64,000 nucleotides of DNA from Luteibacter sp. UNC138MFCol5.1 (lineage in GTDB: Bacteria; Pseudomonadota; Gammaproteobacteria; Xanthomonadales; Rhodanobacteraceae): assembly GCF_900110505.1 (NCBI RefSeq), contig NZ_FODZ01000001.1, positions 1 to 64,000 on the forward strand, given 5' to 3'. A program made the position numbers and the translations under genes. This document shows positions 6,129-20,128 of this stretch, piece by piece. Position 1 is the stretch's first letter. Each line of letters opens with the position of its first letter. Below the pieces are notes generated by a model. The model made no database searches, was not told the DNA's origin, and worked only from the letters and a program-made list of their open reading frames with translations.

Positions 6129-6895
6129 TCGGCGTAGTCCACGGTGAACGGCGCATGGTCCGAGAAGCGCTCGTCGCGGTAGATCGAGCAGTCGCGCAGG
6201 CGGTCGCGCAGGCTGGGGGTGACGATCTGGTAATCGATCCGCCACCCCACGTTGTTCGCCCGTGCCTGGCCCCGGTTCGACCACCAGGTGTACTCGACGG
6301 CGTCGGGCTTGATGGCGCGGAAGCTGTCCACCCAGCCGATCTCGTTGAACAGCAGGTCGAGCCAGGCGCGTTCCTCGGGCAGGCAGCCCGAATTCTTCTG
6401 GTTCGAGGTCCAGTTCTTGATGTCGTTCTTCGTGTGGACGATGTTCCAGTCGCCGCACAGCACGTAGTCGCGGCCGCTGGCGGCCCACTCGCGCAGGATC
6501 GGCGTCAGCCACTCCATCACCCGGAACTTGTACTGCTGCCGTTCGTCGCCGGACGATCCCGACGGGATGTAGAACGAGACGACGCTCAGGTTGCCGTAGC
6601 GGGCCTCGATGTAGCGGCCCTCGCAGTCGAAGTCCTCGCGGCCGAGCGACACGCGCACTTCGTCCGGCTCGCGTTTCGAATAGATGGCCACGCCGCTGTA
6701 GCCCTTCTTGCTGCGGGCGTCGTGGTAGAAGCAATGGTGACCGTCGGGCCGGAACATCGGGTCGGTGAGCTGCGATTCCTGCGATTTGGTTTCCTGCAGG
6801 CAGACGACGTCGGCGTCCTGCTTGCGAAGCCACTCGAACACGCCCTTGGTGGCGGCGGAGCGGATACCGTTGGCGTTCAACGAAATGATGCGCAT
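6125..6895 (-). CDS. xthA: Exodeoxyribonuclease III
   Basis: A 256-residue Mg-dependent 3' exonuclease/AP endonuclease of base-excision repair. Family motifs are in order: MRIISLNANGIRSA (metal-binding Asn), CLQETK (catalytic Glu), YSGVAIYSK, CGDWNIVHTKND and the C-terminal RFSDHAPFTVDY. The start is the ATG at 6895. It is divergent from pyrE and translationally coupled to the downstream ampG through a 4-bp overlap. Confidence 0.95.
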   Translation of the reverse strand: MRIISLNANGIRSAATKGVFEWLRKQDADVVCLQETKSQESQLTDPMFRPDGHHCFYHDARSKKGYSGVAIYSKREPDEVRVSLGREDFDCEGRYIEARYGNLSVVSFYIPSGSSGDERQQYKFRVMEWLTPILREWAASGRDYVLCGDWNIVHTKNDIKNWTSNQKNSGCLPEERAWLDLLFNEIGWVDSFRAIKPDAVEYTWWSNRGQARANNVGWRIDYQIVTPSLRDRLRDCSIYRDERFSDHAPFTVDYAE

Positions 6896-7006
6896 GGGGC
6901 CCTGTCGATGCGTTCGGCGATCCGCCCATGATAACCCGCGGGTGGGCCGCCCCTCGGACCCGGCTGTACCATGGCGGTCTCCCATCGCTCCCGCCCGAGA
7001 TCGCCC

Positions 7007-12437: not shown

Positions 12438-12595
12438 GGCGGGACGGCGGTTCGGAAGGCACGTTAGCTTAACGGATTTCCACCATCGCACTTCCGGAGC
12501 GATTTTTCAGAATCGTTCTATCGCCACATCGCGATCGCAACCCTACCTTGTACATCGTGCCGCAACCCCCGTGCGGCCCTCATCGAAGGGAAGCC

Positions 12596-15486: not shown

Positions 15487-16236
15487 ATGGCAACACGCAA
15501 GAAGGGCAAGGGCCGCCAGGCCGTCCGCAACGGCTCGAGCGGCATGCCAGGCTGGAGCTGGGCGCTGATCGGCATCCTCGCCGGCGCCCTGCTCATGGCC
15601 TTCGCGATGCGCGGCACGTGGATGCCGATGATGCGCCAGCACCAGGGCCCGGAACCGAACCCGCAGGCCACCGCGCAGAAGGGCAGCGATCCGGGCGTCG
15701 TCGACCAGGCCGAGGCGGAGAAGCCGAAGAAGCCCTCGTACGATTTCTATTCGGTGCTCTCCGAGAAAGAGGTCCGCATTCCCGACGCCGAGATCCGGGC
15801 GCAGGCGAGCGCCGAAGCGCAGCAGAAGCAGCAGCAACAGGCCGCGCAGGCGCAGGCACAGGCCGCGGCGGCGCAACAGGCACAGGCGCAGGCGCAGCAG
15901 CAGGCGCAGACGACCGCCGCGGCGGCGAACCTGCCGAAGGCGACGACGCAGACGGTGACCGCGACGCCGTCGCAGCCGGCACCAGCCGCGGCGTCGGGCA
16001 GCTCCGGGTACCTGCTCCAGGTGGGCGCGTTCCCGAGCGCGGCGGATGCCGAGGCTCTCAAGGCAAAGCTCGCGCTGCAGGGTTTCGTGGCCAACGTTCA
16101 GTCGGTCAAGGTCGGTGCGCAGACCTACAACCGCGTCCGCCTCGGCCCCTTCAAGTCGGCCACCGATCTGGAGAGCACGAAACAGCGCCTGCAGTCCGCC
16201 GGCATCAGCGCCATCGCCCTGAAAGAAGGCAGCTGA
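15487..16236 (+). CDS. SPOR-domain inner-membrane protein, FtsN-like
   Basis: A 249-residue bitopic protein with a basic cytosolic tail, a membrane segment near residues 20-42, a long Gln/Ala-rich low-complexity linker (about 105-145) and a C-terminal SPOR domain (YLLQVGAFPSAADAEALKAK to the end). SPOR domains bind denuded septal glycan, so a role in cell division is likely. The argS-SPOR order is familiar in xanthomonads. Its ATG directly abuts the argS stop. Confidence 0.85.
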   Translation: MATRKKGKGRQAVRNGSSGMPGWSWALIGILAGALLMAFAMRGTWMPMMRQHQGPEPNPQATAQKGSDPGVVDQAEAEKPKKPSYDFYSVLSEKEVRIPDAEIRAQASAEAQQKQQQQAAQAQAQAAAAQQAQAQAQQQAQTTAAAANLPKATTQTVTATPSQPAPAAASGSSGYLLQVGAFPSAADAEALKAKLALQGFVANVQSVKVGAQTYNRVRLGPFKSATDLESTKQRLQSAGISAIALKEGS

Positions 16237-16414: not shown

Positions 16415-16927
16415 ATGCGCAACGCCAGAACGAAAGGGGCCGGCCGCCTCATCGATACGCTCGCGACGCGGCTCGAAACGCGCCATCGGAGCGAATGGGG
16501 ATTTTCATGTACCGTCAACGACGTGTTCGTGATGAGTGCCGTCGCGCGTGCTGAAGAGGATCTGCACCCGTTGACGGGCGATCGCTTCTTCATGGTGGAC
16601 GACGCATGGACCGAGCGTTCCGCGCTGATCCAGTTGCTGGCGTTCCCGGCCGCCGGCCATGCTCACGCGGCGAGCGGCCGATACGACATTGGCCTATCGG
16701 AACAGCCCGGGAGCGGCGAAGCCGTTTACTTCGAAGAATGGCCGTTGGGATTCATCAGGTTTCTCCCGACCGGCGGCTGGATCGAGATTGAGTTCGCCGC
16801 TGATCGCACGAGCGTCGAGGGCACGTTCGAGTTCGACGCCACGAACGACACCGAGGGCAATCGATTTATCCGCCGCGGCAAGTTCTTCCTCCCCTACGCC
16901 GATCTCCCGGACCCCAACGCGCCTTAG
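16415..16927 (+). CDS. Divergent, leaderless member of a tandem unknown family (copy A)
   Basis: I do not recognise this 170-residue protein. Its C-terminal 110 residues align by eye with the three genes that follow: HAASGRYDIG against HAVSGRYQLG, GWIEIEFAADRTSVEGTFEF against GWVDVQFSPDRTHVDVTFEF, and a shared proline-rich end. Unlike them it has no evident Sec signal peptide; the N-terminus is basic and polar. The start is firm because AAGGAGGAG precedes the ATG. A cytosolic member beside secreted paralogues is odd and may mark a partner or an ancestral copy. Confidence 0.65.
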   Translation: MRNARTKGAGRLIDTLATRLETRHRSEWGFSCTVNDVFVMSAVARAEEDLHPLTGDRFFMVDDAWTERSALIQLLAFPAAGHAHAASGRYDIGLSEQPGSGEAVYFEEWPLGFIRFLPTGGWIEIEFAADRTSVEGTFEFDATNDTEGNRFIRRGKFFLPYADLPDPNAP

Positions 16928-16972
16928 CGCGAACCTGTGCGTCGCTTCACGACGTGTAAGTCGACGGATTTT

Positions 16973-16986
16973 TCAGACAAGTCTGA
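16973..16986. promoter_or_regulatory. Dyad TCAGA-N4-TCTGA upstream of copy B
   Basis: TCAGA-CAAG-TCTGA is centred about 72 bp before the copy B start and embedded in CGGATTTTTCAGA...TCTGATTCTTT. The arms are identical in the two downstream copies while the 4-base spacer differs (CAAG here, ATGG there), as expected for a protein-binding operator. Confidence 0.5.
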
Positions 16987-17050
16987 TTCTTTCCGGGGTG
17001 TGGGCCGGGCAGCATGCGAGGCGCGTCCTGACACACACCACGGAGTTTTC

Positions 17051-17659
17051 ATGCACCCATCGTTCCGCTCGCGCCTGTCGCGGGCCGTCCTTCTTTCCGC
17101 TCTTTCCAGCACCGTGTTCGCCATGCCGGCGATGGCCGACGACGCCACGATGTCCATCAAGGACTTCGCCACCCGGACCCTCGAGGCGTCGGCTCTCGGC
17201 GCCCGGTCCGACGGGATCATGACGGCGTCGGTCAATGGCGGCCTTCTCATGGAGCGGCAGGCATATATGAGGGAGCTGACCTGGCAGGGCACGCCGTTTT
17301 CGACGCTTTACGGAACAGACAACGGGAAGGGAGGCTCGATAACCATTGGCGTCATCCCACGACGCGGCGAGCTGCACGCCGTCAGCGGCCGGTATGAGCT
17401 CGGCGTTCCGGAAGGCCCTGGCACAGCTTTCGCCACCTACAGAGAGTGGATTCCCGCGCCGCCCGGATTCACTGGTTTCACGTCCTTCGACATCAAGGAA
17501 GGCTGGGTCGACGTACATTTCAGTCCCGACCGGACGCGCGTGGACGTGACCTTCGAATTCGTCGCGCGGGGCGGCGAGCTCGGTACCCGCGTGGTGAAGA
17601 GCGGCCGTTTCTCCGGCCCGAACTACGACCTTCCGCCGCAAGACGTGCGGACGCCTTAA
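17051..17659 (+). CDS. Secreted tandem paralogue, unknown family (copy B)
   Basis: A 202-residue unrecognised protein with a clear Sec signal peptide (MHPSFRSRLSRAVLLSALSS then TVFAMPAMA, cleavage before DD). The mature part of about 173 residues has no cysteines or membrane segments and looks rich in beta strands. Blocks shared with copies C and D are HAVSGRY, GPGTAFA, SFDIKEGWVDV, FSPDRT, TFEFVA and GTRVVKSG. It starts exactly 780 bp before copy C. Its upstream region carries the TCAGA dyad and its 3' end a copied terminator. Extracytoplasmic location is well supported; function is unknown. Confidence 0.75.
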   Translation: MHPSFRSRLSRAVLLSALSSTVFAMPAMADDATMSIKDFATRTLEASALGARSDGIMTASVNGGLLMERQAYMRELTWQGTPFSTLYGTDNGKGGSITIGVIPRRGELHAVSGRYELGVPEGPGTAFATYREWIPAPPGFTGFTSFDIKEGWVDVHFSPDRTRVDVTFEFVARGGELGTRVVKSGRFSGPNYDLPPQDVRTP

Positions 17660-17688
17660 TCGAATTTCAGCGAGGATCGCCCGACCAT

Positions 17689-17720
17689 AAGACCGCCCTC
17701 GTGGCGGTCTTCTCTTTGAC
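17689..17720 (+). terminator. Copied terminator after copy B
   Basis: AAGACCGCC-CTCGT-GGCGGTCTT followed by CTCTTT. The stem and loop match the terminator after the SPOR gene, with a weaker T-tract. Confidence 0.7.
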
Positions 17721-17750
17721 CTGCACGCGCCACGCAAATCGTCGGATTTT

Positions 17751-17764
17751 TCAGAATGGTCTGA
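17751..17764. promoter_or_regulatory. Dyad TCAGA-N4-TCTGA upstream of copy C
   Basis: TCAGA-ATGG-TCTGA lies in the same position relative to the start as in copies B and D. About 9 bp downstream is GTAGGTATAT, a possible -10 region that copy B lacks. Confidence 0.5.
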
Positions 17765-17830
17765 TTCTTTTGTAGGTATATCCCCGGCAGGATGCACAGC
17801 GCGTCCCGACACACACACCACGGAGGCTTC

Positions 17831-18439
17831 ATGTACGGATCGTTCCGCTCGCGCCTGTCGCGCGCTGCTCTCTCTCTTGCCCTTTCCACCGGCGCTTTCG
17901 CCATGCCGGCGATGGCCGACGACGCCACGTATTCCGTGAAGGACTACGCCACCCGAACCCTCGAGGCATCGGCTCTCAGCGTACAGGGCGACGGGGTCCT
18001 GAAGGCGTTGGTCAATGACAGCCTTCTTGTAGGACGCCAGGCGTATGCGATGGAGCTATGGTTTATGGGCCAAAGTTTCACGACGTCTCGCGCAACTTAC
18101 GACGGCAAAGGCGGCTATGTTCTCCTGGGCGTGGTTCCGCCACTCGGGGAGCCGCACGCCGTCAGCGGCCGATATCAGCTCGGCGTACCGGAAGGCCCTG
18201 GCACCGCTTTCGCCAGCTTCATCGAGGACATTACCTCTCCGCCGGGATTCACTGGTGGTATCGCGAGCTTCGACATCAAGGAGGGCTGGGTCGACGTGCA
18301 GTTCAGCCCGGACCGGACACACGTGGACATGACGTTCGAGTTCGTCGCGTTCGATGACGAACTCGGTACCCGCGTGGTGAAGAGCGGCAGTTTCTCCGGT
18401 GCACCAAACCTTCCGCCGCAAGACGTGCGGACGCCTTAA
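17831..18439 (+). CDS. Secreted tandem paralogue, unknown family (copy C)
   Basis: A 202-residue unrecognised protein with a Sec signal (MYGSFRSRLSRAALSLALST then GAFAMPAMA). The first 90 bases of the gene, and most of the upstream leader, are identical to copy D, which implies recent duplication or gene conversion. The body differs from B and D mainly between residues 35 and 90 (for example ALSVQGDGVLKALVNDSLL), while the C-terminal SPDRTHVDMTFEFVAFDDE block is retained. It has its own dyad and terminator, so each copy is probably a separate transcription unit. Confidence 0.75.
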   Translation: MYGSFRSRLSRAALSLALSTGAFAMPAMADDATYSVKDYATRTLEASALSVQGDGVLKALVNDSLLVGRQAYAMELWFMGQSFTTSRATYDGKGGYVLLGVVPPLGEPHAVSGRYQLGVPEGPGTAFASFIEDITSPPGFTGGIASFDIKEGWVDVQFSPDRTHVDMTFEFVAFDDELGTRVVKSGSFSGAPNLPPQDVRTP

Positions 18440-18470
18440 CCGAATTTCAGCGAGGGTCGCCCGACCAGAC

Positions 18471-18500
18471 GACCGCCCTCGTGGCGGTCTTCTCTTTGGC
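18471..18500 (+). terminator. Copied terminator after copy C
   Basis: GACCGCC-CTCGT-GGCGGTC followed by TTCTCTTT. The same element as after copy B, with the outer two A-T pairs lost. Confidence 0.6.
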
Positions 18501-18530
18501 CTGCACGCGGCACGCGAATCGTCGGATTTT

Positions 18531-18544
18531 TCAGAATGGTCTGA
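18531..18544. promoter_or_regulatory. Dyad TCAGA-N4-TCTGA upstream of copy D
   Basis: TCAGA-ATGG-TCTGA, 780 bp after the copy C dyad and in the same context, followed by GTAGGTATGT. Confidence 0.5.
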
Positions 18545-18610
18545 TTTTTTCGTAGGTATGTACCCGGCAGGATACACAGCGCGTCCCGACACACACACCA
18601 CGGAGGCTTC

Positions 18611-19219
18611 ATGTACGGATCGTTCCGCTCGCGCCTGTCGCGCGCTGCTCTCTCTCTTGCCCTTTCCACCGGCGCTTTCGCCATGCCGGCGATGGCCGAC
18701 AACCCCACGTACTCCATCAAAGAGTTCGCCAACCGGACCTTCGAGACGACGACTCTCAGCTCCCGGTCCGACGGGGTCCTGAAGGCATTGGTCAATGGCA
18801 ACCTTCTTGTAGGACGACAGGGATATTTCGTTGAGCAGTACTGGTTGGGCCAGCCGTTTTCGGGGCTCTTCGCAACGTACGACGGGAAGGGCGGTTATGT
18901 AACCCTGGGCGTCGTTCCACCCGTCGGGGAGCCACACGCCGTCAGCGGGCGGTATCAGCTAGGCGGGCCGGAAGGCCCTGGCACCGCTTTCGCTACCTTT
19001 TCCGAGAACATCCCCGCTCCGCCCGGGTACATTGGTGTCAGGGCCTTCGACACGCAAGAAGGCTGGGTCGACGTGCAGTTCAGCCCGGACCGGACACACG
19101 TGGACGTGACGTTCGAGTTCGTCGCGTTCGATGACGAACTCGGTACCCGCGTGGTGAAGAGCGGCAGTTTCTCCGGCCCGAACTACGACGTCCCGCCGCG
19201 GGAGGCGCCGACGCCGTAA
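18611..19219 (+). CDS. Secreted tandem paralogue, unknown family (copy D)
   Basis: A 202-residue unrecognised protein with a signal peptide identical to copy C. The mature domain is closer to copy B at its end (SGPNYDVPPRE). Conserved blocks HAVSGRYQLG, GPGTAFATF, GWVDVQFSPDRTHVDVTFEF and GTRVVKSGSF are present. Copies B, C and D have the same length and are spaced exactly 780 bp apart. The copied terminator is absent after D; a different GC hairpin follows. Confidence 0.75.
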   Translation: MYGSFRSRLSRAALSLALSTGAFAMPAMADNPTYSIKEFANRTFETTTLSSRSDGVLKALVNGNLLVGRQGYFVEQYWLGQPFSGLFATYDGKGGYVTLGVVPPVGEPHAVSGRYQLGGPEGPGTAFATFSENIPAPPGYIGVRAFDTQEGWVDVQFSPDRTHVDVTFEFVAFDDELGTRVVKSGSFSGPNYDVPPREAPTP

Positions 19220-19267: not shown

Positions 19268-20128
19268 TCAGGATGCGCGCTTCAGGCGGATGAGCGCCGA
19301 GATGTCGTCGTCGCCATAGCCCTGCGACATCAGCTCGGCGAAATCGGCCAGCGACTGCTCGATGATCGTGCGATCCGTGCCCGCGTCGGTGGCGATGCCA
19401 CGGACGATGCCGAGATCCTTGTGCAACAGCGCCAGTTTGAAGCCCACCGAGAACTCGTTGCGCAGCATCGTGGCGCCGCGCTTGTCGAGGAACCAGTTGC
19501 CTGCCGCGCCCGCGGCGAGCGTCGGGATCAGACGATCGGCATCGAGACCCAGCGCCTCACCCAGCGCCAGCCCCTCCGTGACCGCGTGGGCGATACCCGC
19601 GACCAGCACCTGATTCACGGCTTTCGTCGCCTGGCCGCTGCCGACCTTGCCCATGTGCGTGATGCGCGCACCGTAGGCCTCGAGCACCGGTCGTGCGCGG
19701 TCGAGCACATCGGCGTCGCCGCCGACCATCACCGACAGCTTCCCGTTCTTCGCGCCTTCGACACCGCCGGAAACCGGTGCGTCGAGAAACGACCCGCCCG
19801 CCTCGGCGATCAGGCGTGCCGCTTTCGTCGCGGTCGCTGGCGCGACGGTCGAATGGTCGATCACGATCGCGCCGGCCTTGAGCGAGGGAGCGAGCGCTTC
19901 GACGACGCCGATGACGTCGGCATCCGCGCTGACACACAGCGCGATCACGTCGCAGGACGCCGCGATCTCCGCCAGCGAAGGCGCGGCGACACCGAGCTCG
20001 CCCGCCAGCGCATCGGCCCGGGCCTGTGTGCGATTGCCCACGGCGGCCAGCAGGCCCTTCGCGTGGAGGTGACCGGCCATGGGCGCGCCCATCGCGCCGA
20101 GTCCGATGAAAGCTGCCTTGAGTGTCAT
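19268..20128 (-). CDS. NAD(P)-dependent beta-hydroxyacid dehydrogenase
   Basis: A 286-residue member of the 3-hydroxyisobutyrate/tartronate-semialdehyde reductase family. The Rossmann motif FIGLGAMGAPMAGHL is at the N-terminus, followed by the substrate motif DAPVSGGVEGAKNG and the catalytic lysine region QATKAVNQVLV. The substrate cannot be assigned from sequence; GarR-, MmsB- and GlxR-like enzymes share these motifs. It is convergent with copy D and codirectional with speA, 60 bp downstream of it. Confidence 0.85.
   Translation of the reverse strand: MTLKAAFIGLGAMGAPMAGHLHAKGLLAAVGNRTQARADALAGELGVAAPSLAEIAASCDVIALCVSADADVIGVVEALAPSLKAGAIVIDHSTVAPATATKAARLIAEAGGSFLDAPVSGGVEGAKNGKLSVMVGGDADVLDRARPVLEAYGARITHMGKVGSGQATKAVNQVLVAGIAHAVTEGLALGEALGLDADRLIPTLAAGAAGNWFLDKRGATMLRNEFSVGFKLALLHKDLGIVRGIATDAGTDRTIIEQSLADFAELMSQGYGDDDISALIRLKRAS

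Follow-up and report, generated by a model that had tools for sequence, protein, structure and literature searches.

Introduction

Two-component systems of the BvgAS/EvgAS type pair a hybrid kinase with an SBP_bac_3 sensor with an adjacent NarL/FixJ-type regulator. The Rcs phosphorelay is described from Enterobacterales, and its regulator RcsB also from Pseudomonas aeruginosa PA14. In the portions of the published accounts on which we draw, the RcsAB box is given as TaAGaatatTCcta (PMC4325325), residues K180 and S184 of Escherichia coli RcsB read bases, K180 reading the half-site (PMC5829831), and the RcsB site of P. aeruginosa cupD1 is placed at about -75 (PMC3842833). Here we compare with these systems a tandem array of four related genes, copies A to D, in a 64,000-nucleotide stretch of Luteibacter sp. 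UNC138MFCol5.1 (contig NZ_FODZ01000001.1, positions 1 to 64,000; hereafter the window). Copies B, C and D encode proteins with leaders and are each preceded by a dyad that resembles the RcsAB box.

This dyad is enriched across the genus, is tied to a locus holding an rcsB-like response regulator gene and, within the array family, is present on leader-bearing copies only. It seems probable to us that the array encodes a lineage-specific family of exported all-beta proteins, that B to D are jointly switched on by an RcsB-like phosphorelay, and that their promoters and leaders are homogenised as the mature part diversifies.

Results

A dyad shared by the leader-bearing copies and the genus

The array dyad has the form TTTTTCAGA-N4-TCTGATT, with the core TCAGA-N4-TCTGA, and is exact in all three units; a first-pass annotation made from the letters of the window had described a matching dyad for each. 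We scored it with a 26-column matrix trained on the upstream regions of a gene for a 73-amino-acid (aa) protein, using 19 of the 23 such regions in the genus (L154, L158, L159 and L161 were left out) and no array sequence; three starts in the training set were misassigned (gaps of 94, 102 and 104), which leaves the site letters unaffected. Over the window the three best matches were the dyads of D, C and B, in that order (Table 1), followed by matches of 23.5 and 10.2 bits, and the maximum in 50 mononucleotide shuffles of the window was 15.3 bits. All three leader-bearing copies of this array have a site, as do the six leader-bearing copies, one of them truncated, of a second array in genome G009 (58-61 bp before the start; 24.9-27.8 bits). 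None of the four leaderless copies examined (A and those of G009, G014 and G007) has one, and all score below 0.

The match of 23.5 bits lies upstream of radC (window 12500-12525, +; CGATTTTTCAGAATCGTTCTATCGCC). Its left half is that of the dyad, and we set it aside as another element because its right half and spacing differ. Among 20 relatives scanned, 12 have this element (threshold at least 13), at 13.4-23.2 bits, and in one of the remaining eight the stretch stops short of the upstream region.

In this genome, TTTTTCAGANNNNTCTGATT with three mismatches allowed has 10 matches, against 1 for the reversed control, and the exact ones are the array's three. Among the 23 genomes of the genus, TTTTCAGANNNNTCTGA with at most one mismatch occurs 108 times and its reversed control 8 times (93 and 8 when G015 is left out). 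Exact dyads number 44, of which 41 lie outside the array. The recurrent target among these is the gene of about 73 aa; other targets are a small protein that appears to be exported, its gene lying next to one that we take to be kdpE-like, and, in a single species, a trypsin-like protein (Trypsin_2). The gene for the small protein was seen in three species (L100:558-896, L105:528-917 and L127:638-1033) with a dyad 56-65 bp upstream, and two of the three proteins were scanned against Pfam, with no match. Dispersed cassette copies (AAAGAGACCGAATTTTCAGA.TAGTCTGAGT; L111-L121) were also seen in G015, in several cases with a small gene for a YVLKSGHDLSIPCPLCKG-type protein (about 100 aa) some 290 bp away, and this cassette looks mobile or amplified.

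Compared by eye with the RcsAB box as given in the part of the source cited above, the cores of C and D share 9 of 14 letters and that of B 8 of 14, and all five capitals of the box (T-AG-----TC) recur in B, C and D. The two halves of the dyad also change together, to TCGGA..TCCGA in G016 and at one G009 site and to TAAGA..TCTTA in G020, as expected of a dimeric regulator, although any dimeric regulator would fit. At a site by amino-acid-permease-like genes, G009 has TCGGA-N4-TCCGA (L013:1055-1080) and G014 has TCAGA-N4-TCTGA (L144:5423). These changes in both halves, with orthology taken from the neighbouring genes, suggest that the symmetry of the dyad is conserved.

An RcsB-like regulator adjoins the recurrent target

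The rcsB-like response regulator gene, the dyad and the 73-aa gene stand at one locus in 23/23 genus genomes. The regulator is 71-100% identical to that of G011 in all 23 neighbourhoods (G011 included), and the dyad upstream of the 73-aa gene scores at least 33 bits in each genome with the matrix that was trained on 19 of these same sites. At L140 the regulator gene occupies 6293-6931 on the minus strand. The 73-aa gene itself (for example L140:9730-9945) is likewise present in all 23; its protein family (YHIA..WGIFREG..DAIAFANFFADRE) adjoins the rcsB-like gene and had no match in Pfam (two members scanned) or NCBIfam (one scanned).

In this genome the regulator combines REC and GerE domains (REC plus LuxR/GerE was found in the G011 protein as well), and among solved proteins RcsB is closest to it (E 1.4e-40). 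For the G011 orthologue the match to RcsB has an E value of 3.2e-40 and the best other solved protein, VraR, 6.5e-19. The equivalent of K180 is kept in 23/23 genomes, as aligned by eye. The adjacent hybrid kinase carries SBP_bac_3, HisKA, HATPase_c and REC domains; a related kinase stands at the locus in 14 of the 23 genomes, in 12 of which it aligned over the catalytic half only. A literature search for RcsB with Luteibacter, Dyella or Xanthomonadales returned nothing apparently relevant by title, and we make no claim that a printed account of an RcsB-like regulon in related genera is absent.

Several observations weigh against RcsB-like control of an exported family. Although RcsB was the best of 64 NCBIfam models, its score of 162.4 bits is below the 235-bit equivalog cut-off, and the equivalent of S184 is Arg in all 23 genomes (aligned by eye); by these comparisons the regulator is RcsB-like, not certified RcsB. 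A same-strand start lies 50-85 bp downstream of only 20 of the 41 exact non-array sites, as judged with a crude codon-usage gene caller, and in G015 8 of the 15 exact sites have the flanking sequence of the dispersed cassette, to which several of the caller's misses belong. The sites of the G009 array keep the left half and have a degenerate right half; because that left half is also common to the radC element, they support the reading weakly, and less than the sites of this genome do. Finally, export of the B-D products is predicted from leaders that were judged by eye. We also considered pairing the S184-to-Arg change with the A-to-C change in the box as co-variation, and rejected this because G020 has a TAAGA box together with Arg.

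The dyad might instead serve as operator for some other regulator, one with the 73-aa gene among its targets, its proximity to rcsB then arising only through that gene. The sub-cut-off NCBIfam score and the replaced S184 favour this possibility, as does the fact that binding of the dyad by the RcsB-like protein is a prediction. We nevertheless regard it as unlikely, because the linkage holds in 23/23 genomes, with and without the kinase, and because the AGA-N4-TCT core and its spacing fit the published RcsAB box. The co-change of half-sites in G016, G009 and G020 points the same way in fitting a dimeric regulator, though any dimer would do so.

Layout and divergence of the copies

The first-pass annotation had described three leader-bearing paralogues of equal length at a fixed spacing beside a leaderless relative, and this description holds. 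The starts of B, C and D are spaced by exactly 780 bp, twice, and a direct-repeat search recovers 780 and 780; each product has 202 aa and, by eye, a Sec-like leader in which an n-region containing Arg precedes a hydrophobic stretch and AMA/D. No cysteine occurs in B, C or D. Copy A has no leader and is preceded by a strong ribosome-binding site, aaggaggagtcATG. A search of the genome with D (P0004) returned C (E 2.2e-96), B (5.3e-85) and A (1.6e-16), with a sole further match at E 0.24; identities to D are 76% for C, 66% for B and 32% for A.

The leaders of C and D (the first 90 bases) do not differ, and the 115 bases upstream are 93% identical. Between these two copies synonymous divergence (dS) is 0.33 and nonsynonymous divergence (dN) 0.16 overall, with dN rising to 0.29 in residues 31-103. 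Among B, C and D, dS ranges from 0.33 to 0.40 and dN from 0.16 to 0.23. The whole-gene dN/dS ratio is 0.48-0.59, and that of residues 31-103 in the B/D pair reaches 1.12, values that come from small samples and carry no significance test. From these comparisons the mature part looks fast-evolving and the promoter and leader look homogenised. The neighbouring dehydrogenase-like core gene, compared with the nearest of 13 relatives measured, has a dS of 0.55 and a dN of 0.03. Thus the claim that the amplification was recent stands in a relative sense only: the dS between copies is lower than that to the nearest measured relative, and the copies seem to postdate the split from it.

Distribution and the antagonist alternative

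When 233 genomes of the bacterial family were searched with a profile built from the members in this genome, G009 and G014, 4 contained such proteins: the three source genomes and G007, all from the one genus (23 genomes). Conservation beyond this strain, which the first-pass annotation had left to be checked, therefore extends to three more species, one of them with an array of its own. That array, in G009, lies on the minus strand and holds a leaderless and a truncated copy besides five genes with leaders; its locus differs from that in the window, lying between genes that we take to be mtnD-like and mtnC-like. G014 and G007 (the latter 80% complete) each have a single leaderless copy adjoining a presumably lpxK-like gene. 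Class-wide, 2 of 369 genomes matched, this genome and G280, and we judged the G280 match to be chance because its reading contains an internal stop and no fitting open reading frame (ORF) lies in the region.

Searches directed at mobile elements and further relatives were negative. A tblastn search with D (E limit 0.1) found 0 matches among 72,556 records of plasmids and 50,697 of phages; a scan of viral contigs gave 4 pattern stretches, of which 0 were confirmed; and two scans for relatives among the contigs of named genomes gave 7 and 54 pattern stretches, of which tblastn at E<=1e-3 confirmed 0. The latter two scans used one and two short peptide patterns, which distant relatives could escape.

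In a tree of the family, A joins B-D with support of 91/91, and the five G009 copies form a group; with 11 rows and long branches, this tree is weak evidence. Alignment A3 holds five of the G009 copies, and A4 leaves out the leaderless G009 copy and has a G007 row that starts one codon early and misses the last four residues.

The pairing of one leaderless relative with several copies that carry leaders, the fast change of the mature part and the patchy distribution would suit a contest with neighbours, in which B-D are secreted antagonists and A is a related immunity protein; the grouping of A with B-D, on a long branch, fits as well. This idea strikes us as improbable. G014 and G007 show a leaderless copy only, allowing for the incompleteness of G007, so that exported partners are seemingly unneeded, and the leaderless copy of G009 looks like a sister gene that was truncated and whose promoter has decayed. 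Moreover, the four proteins matched 0 PADLOC families at E<=0.1, and PHROGs gave a single weak match, to A (E 0.055).

Family identity and predicted structure

Copies A-D have no confident domain in Pfam, NCBIfam, PHROGs or PADLOC. The earlier statement that the family contains no recognised domain stands as far as confident library matches go, and requires qualification for one sub-threshold lead: DUF6252 (PF19765) matches copy A at E 0.025 and 15.3 bits, against a gathering cut-off of 27.2, over residues 88-158 in a weak hidden Markov model match, with no match to B, C or D. At E<=1 the domain is found in 2 of 11 family members, and above its cut-off in 0 of the 23 genus genomes. A leaderless DUF6252-like protein occurs in one of 398 genomes of the phylum (G886; E 9.7e-6, 26.3 of 27.2 bits, just below the cut-off), and 2 of the 298 genomes in that organism's own family, its own among them, contain a match to it; aligned with the array family by hhalign, this protein gives E 0.003 and a probability of only 10%. 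As all matches are below the cut-off and the profile comparison is weak, we do not claim membership of DUF6252 for the array family. A literature search on DUF6252 found nothing.

AlphaFold2 models of both member types are all-beta. That of D has a mean predicted local distance difference test (pLDDT) score of 63.9 and a predicted template-modelling (pTM) score of 0.64; that of A has a pLDDT of 81.8 and a pTM of 0.75, and from residue 31 onwards its block means lie at 74-96. Foldseek at E<=0.001 found no match for D in the PDB and none for A in the PDB or a viral library, which does not prove a new fold; no DUF6252 structure was identified with which to compare the models. Crustacyanin and GFP barrels were the top structure matches and were not used, their template-modelling scores being about 0.2. 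A PDB match to ThreeFoil (E 0.0011) was attributed to chance, as it sums three weak repeats with independent E values of 12 or worse.

The sub-threshold leads from A, G886 and hhalign would suit a plainer view, in which the proteins resemble DUF6252, work at the surface or in the periplasm under no special regulation, and owe their copy number to neutral tandem duplication. This is to our minds very doubtful, since no match reaches the cut-off and the idea leaves the retained dyads, the identical C/D leaders and the whole-gene dN/dS unexplained.

The probable insertion junction and neighbouring features

The array lies between genes that we take to be SPOR-like, following a presumed argS, and 3-hydroxyisobutyrate-dehydrogenase-like (Table 1). 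Of the 18 relatives in which both genes were found, 17 have 55-188 bp between these two flanks and the eighteenth, G009, has 623 bp, against about 3 kb here; G007 falls outside the measurement, and in G005, G015 and G020 the dehydrogenase gene was not found within the stretch examined. The array is most simply explained as an insertion at an unstable junction. The same junction, 3' of the SPOR-like gene, holds other genes in G020 (L067) and G015 (L066), which suggests that it is insertion-prone. In G009 (L021) the 623-bp gap is packed with repeated GTGGGAGCCGCCATGGCGGCGAG-type units resembling repetitive extragenic palindromic (REP) elements.

A hairpin, GACCGCC-CTCGT-GGCGGTC, recurs 3' of the SPOR-like gene, B and C. 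Terminator-like matches in the array region are at chance level (2 found, 2.6 expected), and of the three hairpins only that of C was listed by the terminator scan.

Table 1. Features of the array and its flanks (window coordinates)
Feature	Position	Strand	Basis and remarks
SPOR-like gene (name presumed), left flank, after argS (name presumed)	15487-16236	+	Matched in relatives
Copy A, leaderless, probably cytosolic, 170 aa	16415-16927	+	ORF; predicted all-beta domain, confident from about residue 31; without an RcsB-like site upstream
RcsB-like dyad of unit B, TTTTTCAGACAAGTCTGATT, 64 bp 5' of start	16969-16988	+	Matrix, 38.6 bits
Copy B, leader-bearing, 202 aa	17051-17659	+	ORF; own-genome matches
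Hairpin 3' of B, AAGACCGCCCTCGTGGCGGTCTT, possible terminator; same hairpin 3' of SPOR-like gene	17689-17711	+	Repeats; absent from terminator-scan list
RcsB-like dyad of unit C, TTTTTCAGAATGGTCTGATT, 66 bp 5' of start	17747-17766	+	Matrix, 38.8 bits
Copy C, leader-bearing, 202 aa	17831-18439	+	ORF; own-genome matches
Hairpin 3' of C, possible terminator	18471-18489	+	Repeats and terminator scan, whose total is not above chance
RcsB-like dyad of unit D, TTTTTCAGAATGGTCTGATT, 66 bp 5' of start	18527-18546	+	Matrix, 40.2 bits
Copy D, leader-bearing, 202 aa, leader as in C	18611-19219	+	ORF; copy comparison
3-Hydroxyisobutyrate-dehydrogenase-like gene (name presumed), right flank, convergent	19268-20128	-	Gap comparison in relatives

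Discussion

We propose that B, C and D act as three self-contained expression units, each composed of an RcsB-like operator, a Sec leader and a diversified all-beta mature domain. In this genome the SBP_bac_3 hybrid kinase next to the regulator would feed the RcsB-like protein, which, once phosphorylated, would most likely bind the TCAGA-N4-TCTGA dyads 64-66 bp 5' of the starts. When the envelope or surface is under stress, such binding would activate, rather than repress, all three copies along with the 73-aa gene. Their proteins would then act in the periplasm or extracellularly, where the fast-changing residues 31-103 of B-D most likely bind a variable partner, and recombination would keep the promoters and leaders alike. 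Copy A would be a leaderless relative outside RcsB-like control.

The first-pass annotation had seen in the array a secreted family of unrecognised identity, amplified beside a cytosolic member under dose- or diversity-driven selection. Much of this survives: the family is unrecognised, amplified and probably exported, a member that lacks a leader stands next to it, and the divergence of the C and D mature parts and dN bear signs of diversity-driven change; the suggested roles in adhesion, surface binding or contest with neighbours did not find the same backing. Because the dyad is genus-wide and tied to the RcsB-like locus, coordinated expression induced by stress or surface contact explains the array better than dose alone.

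A further-reaching possibility, which we think unlikely at present, is that the phosphorelay deploys a rapidly diversifying repertoire of exported beta proteins. Here one operator-plus-leader cassette, held uniform through gene conversion, would drive interchangeable mature domains, carried at different loci in different species and triggered by stress against a variable partner such as a phage, a competitor or a host surface. More broadly, the analysis turns an anonymous array into a testable regulon with an operator motif, a regulator locus in 23/23 genomes and a first list of targets. The two arrays at different loci, with dyad-like sites on leader-bearing copies only, suggest a module conferring both stress control and export. 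With the dyad as motif, an RcsB-like response could also be mapped in non-enteric bacteria.

Among described families and systems, DUF6252 (PF19765) has the feature order G-x-Y ... G-x-F-x-F ... G-x-F, and the order in the array family is similar; unlike DUF6252, the leader-bearing array members have a longer N-terminal part. The regulator locus of this genome is like the BvgAS/EvgAS type in that an SBP_bac_3 hybrid kinase adjoins a NarL/FixJ-type regulator, whereas the regulator itself is nearer to RcsB than to EvgA by PDB and NCBIfam scores. From the Rcs phosphorelay the locus differs in the regulator's partner, a hybrid kinase (with a related one in 14/23 genomes and SBP_bac_3 shown for this genome only; no search for RcsC, RcsD or RcsA was made), in the Arg at S184 and the sub-cut-off RcsB score, and in having targets that include small, apparently exported proteins. 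The core also differs from that of the RcsAB box, being TCAGA..TCTGA here and TAAGA..TCCTA there. What the locus shares with the Rcs phosphorelay is a regulator of REC plus GerE architecture, an AGA-N4-TCT dyad with all five of the most conserved letters of the RcsAB box, in the form given in the part of the source cited, and, as in the portion of the cupD1 account cited here (PMC3842833), a site placed tens of bases before the start.

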